A DNA stretch of 51,792 nt from Anaerolineales bacterium. Lineage in GTDB: Bacteria; Chloroflexota; Anaerolineae; Anaerolineales; UBA6663. Position 1 is the first letter of the stretch, and each line of letters opens with the position of its first letter. The translations under genes were made by a program, and so were the position numbers. The notes below the pieces were generated by a model. It was not told the DNA's origin, did not search any database, and saw only the letters and a program-made list of their open reading frames with translations. Where the stretch lies: positions 1-51,792 of the forward strand of contig JADLEU010000162.1 in the NCBI GenBank assembly GCA_020845955.1, written 5' to 3'. Positions 11,220 to 41,675 of the stretch are shown here, one piece after another.

Positions 11220-12644
11220 ATGGCCCTTTTGACGCCAGATTACGCGCGGCTGATCCGTGATGGCCTCCCGCCGGCCCAGACGCCCCGAAGGGTGCTCGTG
11301 CTGGGCGCCGGCCTGGCCGGCCTGGCCGCGGCCCATGCCCTGGTGCGTGCCGGCCATACTCCCCTTGTGCTGGAGGCCCAAAACCGGGTTGGCGGGCGGG
11401 TCTGCACGCTGCGCGAGCCGTTCAGCGATGGCCTGTACGCCGAGGCTGGCGCAATGCGGATTCCGCGCGCTCACACGCTGACGATGGCCTACGTCGAGCA
11501 TTTCCGCTTGCCGACTCTGCCATTCACCATGGGCAATCGGCAATGCTACTACTACCTGCACGGCCGGCGGTATCGGATCGCGGAGGCGACGGCCAATCCC
11601 GATGTGCTGGGCTTTGACTGCCACCCGCACGAACGCGGGCAAACGCACGACCAGCTGTGGCAAGCGGCCCTTGCGCCGCTGTTCGAACGGCTGCGTGTGG
11701 GCGGCGAGGCGGCCTGGGACGAGTTGCTGGCCGAATACGACCAGTATTCGACGCGCGAGTTCCTGGAGAAGTGCGGCTGGTCTGAAGGGGCGATCGAGAT
11801 GTTCGGACTGCTGGCCGACCAGGAAGCGCTGATGAACTCATCCTTCCTAGAGCTCTTCCGCGAAGAAGCCGGCCGCAACTATGTTGACCTGGTGCAAATC
11901 GAAGGCGGCATGGACCACTTGCCGCGCGCCTTTCTGCCTGCTCTGCGCCAGCACATCCGCTTCGGCGCCCGGGTCGTAGCGCTGGAGCAGACCGCCACCG
12001 GGGTGACGGCTCACTACACCACGCCCGCCGGGCGCTTCCGGGCCACCGGCGACTATGCCATCGTCGCCCTGCCGTTTCCGGCCCTGCGGCATGTTGAAAT
12101 CCTGCAGCCCTTCTCGCGCGGCAAGCAGCGGGCCATTCGCCAGCTGCACTACGACGCATCGGCCAAAATCTGGTTTCAATGCCGGCGGCGCTTTTGGGAA
12201 GAAGACGAGGGGATCTTTGGCGGCGGCACGACCACCGACCTGCCGATCCGGGTGGTGTACTACCCTGACCACGGGCGCGAGACCGGCCGAGGCGTGATCC
12301 TGGCCAGCTACACCTGGTCAGAGGATGCTCAGCGCTGGGGGTCGCTTGGCCCCGAGGCCCGCCTCGTCGAGGCGCTCGATGACCTGACGGAAATCCATCC
12401 CCAGGTGCGCGCGGAGTTCGAGTGTGGGGCGTCGAAGATGTGGCACGACGACGAGTTTGCCGGCGGCGCCTTCGCGCTATTTGATCCGGGTCAGCAGACT
12501 CTGCTTTACCGCGACATCATCGCGCCCGAAGGCCGCATCTTTTTTGCGGGCGAACACGCTTCGCTCCATCATGCCTGGATCCAGGGCGCCATCGAATCGG
12601 GGCTGCGCGAAGCCGCCACCATCCATGCCCTGAGCCAGGCCTGA
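11220..12644 (+). CDS. Flavin-containing amine oxidase
   Basis: A 474-residue FAD enzyme of the monoamine oxidase/L-amino-acid oxidase family (PF01593). The FAD-binding motif VLVLGAGLAGLAAAHALVRA is followed by VLEAQNRVGGRVCT, the usual Rossmann fold plus GG-R-x-x-T motif. Near the C-terminus, RIFFAGEHAS and HAWIQGAIESGLREA form the second FAD contact region. The enzyme oxidises an amine to an imine with release of hydrogen peroxide; the substrate cannot be read. The start is the ATG at 11220, which places the Rossmann motif close to the N-terminus as in the family. It is 28 nt after the NACHT gene and may be co-transcribed with it. Confidence 0.88.
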   Translation: MALLTPDYARLIRDGLPPAQTPRRVLVLGAGLAGLAAAHALVRAGHTPLVLEAQNRVGGRVCTLREPFSDGLYAEAGAMRIPRAHTLTMAYVEHFRLPTLPFTMGNRQCYYYLHGRRYRIAEATANPDVLGFDCHPHERGQTHDQLWQAALAPLFERLRVGGEAAWDELLAEYDQYSTREFLEKCGWSEGAIEMFGLLADQEALMNSSFLELFREEAGRNYVDLVQIEGGMDHLPRAFLPALRQHIRFGARVVALEQTATGVTAHYTTPAGRFRATGDYAIVALPFPALRHVEILQPFSRGKQRAIRQLHYDASAKIWFQCRRRFWEEDEGIFGGGTTTDLPIRVVYYPDHGRETGRGVILASYTWSEDAQRWGSLGPEARLVEALDDLTEIHPQVRAEFECGASKMWHDDEFAGGAFALFDPGQQTLLYRDIIAPEGRIFFAGEHASLHHAWIQGAIESGLREAATIHALSQA

Positions 12645-12647
12645 CGC

Positions 12648-13709
12648 CTACACGAGCCGCAACTCGCCTCCGCCAGCCTCGGCTCGACCGATGACGTGCG
12701 CGGCCTCGCCCGCCCCGTGCAGCCTGCCGATCAGGGCTGGCAGCTCAGCCTCCGCCACGGCAATCAGCAGCCCACCAGAAGTTTGCGGGTCGTGCAGCAG
12801 GCGCTGCTGCCAATCGGCCAGGCCAAGCTCAGCCGCCCCCATAACCCACCGGCCAAAGTACGCCTCATTCCGTTCCGAGCCACCCGGAAAGACCCACTGC
12901 TCAGCCAGGGCCTGTGCGCCAGGCAGCCAGGGCAGCGCGCCATAATCAATCCGGAAGGCCGCGTCTGCCAGGTGGGCCATCTCGTGGGCGTGGCCAAGCA
13001 GCCCAAATCCCGTGATATCTGTCACTGCGTGCACCCCCAGCGTTGCCTGGGCCGCCTCGCTGGCCGGCCGGTTGAGATGCAGCATGCTGGCAATGGCAGC
13101 GGCCAGATCCGCGGCAGCTGCCCGCCCCTGCTTGTGGGCGGTCGTGACCACGCCGGTGCCCAGCGCTTTGGTCAGCACCAGCCGGTCACCGGGCCGGGCG
13201 CCGCCTTTGGTAAAAATGCGCCCGGGATCTACCAAACCAGTGACCGCCAGGCCGTACTTGGGCTCCCGATCGGTGACGGTGTGGCCCCCGGCCAGAGCAG
13301 CGCCCGCTTCGCGCAGTTTCTCGGCGCCGCCCCGCAGTATATCGCCGACGATGTCCGGCGGCAGGTCATCGGGGAACGCAGCCAGGTTGATGGCGAAGAG
13401 CGGCCGGCCGCCCATGGCGTAGATGTCGGACAGGGCATTGGCCGCCGCGATGGCGCCGAAGGTATGGGCGTCGTCGACGACCGGGGGGAAGAAATCAGCC
13501 GTAGCGATGATGGCCTGTTCAGCATTTAAGCGATACACGGCCGCGTCGTCGGGCAGCCCGAGACCCACCAAGAGATTTGGATAATCTTGAGCCGGGAACA
13601 TGCCGGCCAGAGGGCGCAGAACCTGCGCCAGGGCCTCTGGGCCCATTTTGCTGGCTCAGCCCGCGCACGTTGCGAGGCTGGTCAAGCGCAGTCGCTGACC
13701 GGTGCTCAT
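12648..13709 (-). CDS. selD: Selenide, water dikinase (selenophosphate synthetase), itself a selenoprotein
   Basis: SelD makes selenophosphate from selenide and ATP, the selenium donor for selenocysteine and selenouridine. Starting at the ATG at 13709, the reading is LRLTSLATCAG, then an in-frame TGA at 13656-13658, then ASKMGPEALAQVLRPL. The TGA falls where SelD carries its catalytic Cys or Sec, three residues before the essential Lys (Sec18 and Lys21 here, compared with Cys17 and Lys20 in E. coli). A gene model starting at the ATG at 13646 would lose both. Later motifs are intact: TADFFPPVVDD, AANALSDIYAMGG, LAGGHTVTD and DITGFGLLGHAHEM. With Sec the length is 353 residues, normal for the family. 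AAAGGA lies 8 nt before the ATG. Convergent with the amine oxidase gene (3 nt apart). Confidence 0.93.
13605..13655 (-). other. Putative bacterial SECIS hairpin for the selD UGA
   Basis: Directly after the UGA, the minus strand folds into a perfect 7-bp inner stem (GGCGCAG at 13629-13623 with CTGCGCC at 13619-13613) closed by the loop GTT. A lower stem AGAG/CTCT plus CC/GG and GG/CC forms across 13644-13634 and 13612-13605, with a single bulged C and a five-base bulge on the 5' side. The apical loop starts 33 nt after the UGA and begins with G. Bacterial SECIS elements are described as having the loop about 16-37 nt downstream with a G in its first two positions, so both conditions are met. 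SelB binding is not shown. Confidence 0.75.
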
Positions 13710-41487: not shown

Positions 41488-41669
41488 GGGATCAGCGCGC
41501 CCCGCCATGCCGTGTGCTGCCAAGTTTTGAACCTGCTTTCGCAGGGTGGGGACCGCCCGGCCGGGTCTGCCTTGGCCGAAGCCTAACGCATTCCTGGTCT
41601 GAGATTAGTCCCCAAAGTAACGGTGTTGGCTCAAAACGGCACGACAGCATCACGCTCACAGCAGGGACG
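41452..41669 (-). ncRNA. Structured RNA with 6S-like architecture, own promoter and terminator
   Basis: Reading the minus strand from about 41669: a closing stem GTG/GCTG with CAGC/CAC and GTTTTGA (41637-41631) with TCAAAAC (41530-41524). Next is a bubble whose 5' side is 16 unpaired nt and whose 3' side is a 14-nt hairpin CCTGC-GAAA-GCAGG (41545-41532). An apical stem TGGGGAC/GTCCCCA (41614-41608, 41553-41547) follows, with an inner hairpin GGC-TTCG-GCC at 41583-41574. GNRA and C(UUCG)G loops appear only in the minus-strand reading. Closing stem, central bubble with a 3'-side hairpin, and apical arm are the plan of 6S RNA, the RNA-polymerase decoy. A different RNA class cannot be excluded; primary sequence was not matched to a known 6S. 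Confidence 0.65.
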
Positions 41670-41675
41670 ACCTTA

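Follow-up and report, generated by a model that had tools for sequence, protein, structure and literature searches.

Selenide, water dikinases that contain selenocysteine (Sec) (TIGR00476, COG0709) are a widespread selenoprotein family (PMC1794560, PMC13188914). Among prokaryotic selenoprotein families, SelD with Sec ranks second in breadth of distribution; SECIS elements of the bacterial type (bSECIS) have been predicted in it before, and the gene described here is an ordinary member. The published bSECIS model calls for a loop of 3-9 nt with a G in its first two positions, on a stem of 4-16 bp, placed 16-37 nt from the UGA and with an energy of at most -7.5 kcal/mol (PMC13188914). Among open-licence papers, no study of SelD from Chloroflexi or Anaerolineae was found by title or abstract.

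The gene lies on the minus strand of a stretch of 51,792 nucleotides (the window), which is contig C162 of a source genome of 6.06 Mb in 431 contigs. It consists of one frame interrupted by a single internal TGA (Table 1), and lies between a convergent amine oxidase-type gene, whose end is at 12644, and a divergent FHA-domain gene. When the TGA is read through, the translation starts MSTGQRLRLTSLATCAG-U-ASKMGPEALAQVL, placing Sec at residue 18 and Lys at residue 21, the three-residue interval from the essential Lys described in an earlier note on this DNA. The read-through product was matched by TIGR00476 over residues 8-321 (376 bits, cut-off 125) and by NF002098 (348.7 bits, cut-off 299), and it contains the Pfam domains AIRS and AIRS_C. 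With translation begun at the next in-frame ATG, the TIGR00476 score dropped to 353.2 bits; because it rises to 376 bits when they are added, the 21 extra N-terminal residues carry SelD family signal, in keeping with the proposal that read-through restores the conserved N-terminus. Solved selenide, water dikinases also match the product, for example 3u0o (E 2.2e-70), which has Cys at the Sec column; U18 and K21 align to the Cys and Lys of both 3u0o and 2yye, and a Lys three residues past this column is conserved among the solved enzymes. We conclude from these matches that the frame encodes a selenide, water dikinase (SelD), with catalysis as a predicted property. The sole further SelD-like match in the source genome is weak (E 1.5e-7, 32% identity over residues 17-251), and selD is therefore the only SelD found there.

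Table 1. Positions of the selD features in the window
Feature	Position	Strand	Evidence
selD CDS, 353 aa counting the UGA as Sec18 (ATG at 13709, stop ending at 12648)	12648..13709	minus	TIGR00476, Pfam AIRS and AIRS_C, solved-structure matches
In-frame TGA (13658-13656), putative Sec codon in the catalytic Cys/Sec column	13656..13658	minus	same column TGA/TGC in relatives
Next in-frame ATG (13646), naive gene-caller start (332 aa, without Sec18 and Lys21)	13644..13646	minus	332-aa ORF
bSECIS-type hairpin GGCGCAG-GUU-CUGCGCC, 7 bp (arms 13629-13623 and 13619-13613, loop GUU 13622-13620)	13613..13629	minus	published model, direct scan; synonymous covariation

SelD matches were found in 52 of 61 genomes, and nearly all of the strong full-length ones hold exactly one TGA. 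Of the 30 loci read first (the one in the window and those of 29 relatives), 29 have the TGA at the same codon, within the motif C(A/S)G-U-A-(A/S/G)-K, and the remaining locus, L020 of genome G001, has TGC. The set was enlarged to 99 distinct motif-bearing sequences, drawn from the first loci and named genome contigs, mostly of Chloroflexota, Anaerolineae MAGs. The catalytic column is TGA in 95 and TGC in four, a count of Sec versus Cys only, since the selection motif admitted nothing at this position other than Cys or a stop codon. A TGA common to 95 distinct sequences at the catalytic column is not chance. The unrelated N-terminus that the earlier note named as evidence against its reading was not encountered: relatives have this N-terminus in common, with Sec or Cys at the column. 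If the TGA were a true stop, selD would be a pseudogene, carry a sequencing error (TGC to TGA) or start at the downstream ATG and yield an N-terminally short enzyme. An ORF of 332 aa from that ATG exists, as do closely related Cys forms with TGC (L020), but 94 further distinct sequences, taken from independent assemblies, have TGA at the same codon, the short form would be without the catalytic residue and the Lys, and no second good SelD was found in this genome, which retains selA, selB and selC; we consider a true stop very improbable. The point has a bearing on annotation: as had been anticipated, the downstream ATG comes after both Sec18 and Lys21, and a standard gene caller starting at it deletes the catalytic residue, so that a key selenium enzyme would look dead.

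The expectation that the genome would carry selA, selB and selC was borne out. Matches were obtained for selA (539.5 bits, cut-off 267.9), for selB (349.7 bits with the neighbouring frames included; cut-off 242.25) and for one tRNA-Sec (72.8 bits, gathering threshold 47), which ARAGORN also called as tRNA-SeC with anticodon tca (UCA). No match to selenouridine synthase (SelU, TIGR03167) was found in the source genome. The presence of tRNA-Sec (UCA), SelA and SelB also speaks against a reading of the TGA as another amino acid, whether by general TGA recoding or by read-through without Sec as in insect SPS1-UGA. Such non-Sec read-through of SPS-UGA has been proposed in Hymenoptera (PMC4561486); here, however, the column is TGA or Cys in the compared loci (the only two states that the search motif allowed), and the few plausible TGA-crossing frames in a 1.72-Mb scan make general recoding unlikely. 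Of the explanations considered, we give this one the least credence.

Together, these observations argue that selD very probably encodes a SelD with Sec in its N-terminal catalytic loop, SelB reading the UGA as Sec under the direction of a downstream hairpin. SelB carrying Sec-tRNA-Sec would decode the UGA, directed by the hairpin that lies just past it in the same mRNA. The enzyme would make selenophosphate from selenide and ATP, and SelA would use the selenophosphate to make Sec-tRNA-Sec; as the supplier of selenophosphate for Sec-tRNA-Sec, SelD would therefore help to provide the residue that SelD itself needs. For this protein, the insertion of Sec, the binding of SelB and the enzyme activity are predictions.

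The distribution of the machinery among relatives was also examined. The TGC-bearing SelD of G001 (L020/L049, Anaerolineales MAG SJ819) is 71% identical to the window SelD and its sister on the tree. In G001, selA, selB, tRNA-Sec and SelU were all without a match over the cut-off, and by these searches its SelD is an orphan. Likewise, G042, in which the best SelD match is free of stops, gave no selA, selB or tRNA-Sec over the cut-off. These two genomes follow the coupling that is expected between Sec and the genes for its insertion. Several TGA-bearing relatives, among them G018, G019 and G032, gave no tRNA-Sec over the cut-off, in what are mostly draft assemblies searched with stricter filters. 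The tRNA-like matches close to selD in G019 and G056 proved to be tRNA-Met and were rejected as tRNA-Sec. A degenerate DNA pattern for Cys-SelD found no match in 400 genomes of the phylum, the pattern being too strict for this to mean absence.

The hairpin described in the earlier note, with 7 bp and a 3-nt loop starting with G within the bSECIS range, was recovered by direct scan. Its loop (GUU) begins 33 nt past the UGA and its energy is -11.3 kcal/mol, in agreement with the published model. At gathering thresholds, Rfam detected no SECIS family in the window; its only hit was a 6S RNA (RF00013) at 41496-41670 on the minus strand (50 bits, gathering threshold 46.4). When selD was recoded synonymously, 5.4% of the recodings yielded an equal or better hairpin (p about 0.05), and the fold of the 60-nt segment was not unusual relative to shuffles (z = -1.23). 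Taken singly, then, the window hairpin is not exceptional for a GC-rich gene and could be a coding chance; to be convincing it needs comparative evidence.

Across the 95 Sec genes, the mean best model energy was -8.1, versus -3.5 (sd 0.39) in synonymous recodings. Moreover, the Gln codon of the 5' arm co-varies among the relatives with the Leu codon of the 3' arm, both changing synonymously, with CAG/CTG in 33 sequences and CAA/TTG in 26 as against CAG/TTG in four and CAA/CTG in one. The log odds of this pairing were 4.88 in the hairpin versus a mean of 0.56 for Gln and Leu codons at other places in these genes, none of 2000 draws was as high, and the pattern is present in every GC3 quarter. 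When corrected for the tree, the comparison retains six independent contrasts on starred branches, 4.2 in the same direction and 0.0 in the opposite one (median p 0.125), which is consistent with pairing and, alone, short of significance. Paired synonymous changes across relatives thus support a role for the hairpin, as judged from sequence comparison. Among the Cys homologues, L066, one of the four, also has a hairpin at the site, and L020 has no model hairpin.

Possibly, Sec is inserted and what SelB reads is another hairpin, GGGCC-CAGA-GGCCC, which lies closer to the UGA, or else the junction as a whole. The minimum-energy fold of selD contains both hairpins, and in some related lineages the sole scoring hairpin has its loop about 20-21 nt past the UGA. 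The CAGA loop, however, is without a G in its first two positions and so misses the published model, and the paired synonymous changes belong to the hairpin of Table 1, not to the proximal one; we regard this alternative as unlikely, and the hairpin of Table 1 as the preferred candidate for directing SelB.

The position of the hairpin varies among the relatives. The winning model-like hairpin has its loop at 31-35 nt in 58 sequences and at 18-25 nt (mostly 20-21) in 21, with 20 undecided, under classes set by our own energy rule and with bulged variants of the +33 hairpin included in the undecided group. The class with the loop at 18-25 nt involves at least three changes on starred branches of the SelD tree. 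In many of the relatives' selD genes (L022-L030, L032, L089-L126) the hairpin was seen about 12 nt nearer the UGA, at three or more separate places in the tree. The two positions, their classes being dependent on the rule, are a lead and not a result. We give an even chance to the idea that the SECIS shifted by about 12 nt (loop 32-33 or 20-21 nt past the UGA) several times in Chloroflexota selD, the apical CAG-GUN-CUG having arisen anew four codons farther upstream in certain lineages. If so, SelB in these organisms would tolerate two distances between UGA and hairpin within one gene. With about 95 Sec genes, close relatives that have switched to Cys and two hairpin positions, the collection makes a good set for testing the limits of the SECIS-UGA distance.

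The source genome was also searched for other Sec-containing proteins. Two full-length matches to the formate dehydrogenase alpha subunit (L130, 1465-3633, and L129; contigs C33 and C379) are open without a TGA. L130 has Cys (RLCHAGS) at what we take to be the position of Sec in E. coli FdhF. A scan for TGA read-through over 1.72 Mb of the genome returned 93 candidates, of which one, a rhodanese, was credible by eye; the scan passes over SelD, with only 17 codons before its TGA, and would likewise miss any other selenoprotein whose N-terminus is short. This second likely selenoprotein gene encodes a membrane-anchored rhodanese (L197, 1770-2291, contig C52) with the sequence IITYCT-U-PAEESSARAAL. 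PF00581 scored 69.5 bits across the TGA and 47.2 bits before it, and a hairpin of -9.5 kcal/mol has its loop 21 nt past the TGA. A second copy on contig C343 is 91% identical, and homologues with one TGA, at whatever column, occur in several relatives, including G024, G052, G015, G054, G030 and G002. Rhodanese-related selenoproteins are on record (PMC1088965). This uncultured Anaerolineales-like bacterium thus appears to decode Sec even though its full-length formate dehydrogenases are free of TGA, and SelD and the rhodanese, in place of formate dehydrogenase, are therefore candidates for what keeps the Sec trait.

Compared with known Sec-containing SelD, the window enzyme shows no difference of substance, the host being an uncultured, Anaerolineales-like member of the Chloroflexota. 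As in the known cases, the predicted Sec lies in the N-terminal catalytic loop with Lys at +3, a hairpin lies just past the UGA, and the genome has selA, selB and selC. The motif is CAG-U-ASK, where the solved 3u0o has AGCGCK. With respect to the bSECIS consensus, the 33-nt spacing comes close to the upper limit of the range, whereas related lineages have about 20-21 nt. The Cys-containing SelD of G001 has the same N-terminus at 71% overall identity; unlike it, the window gene has TGA in place of TGC, a model hairpin, and selA, selB and selC in its genome.
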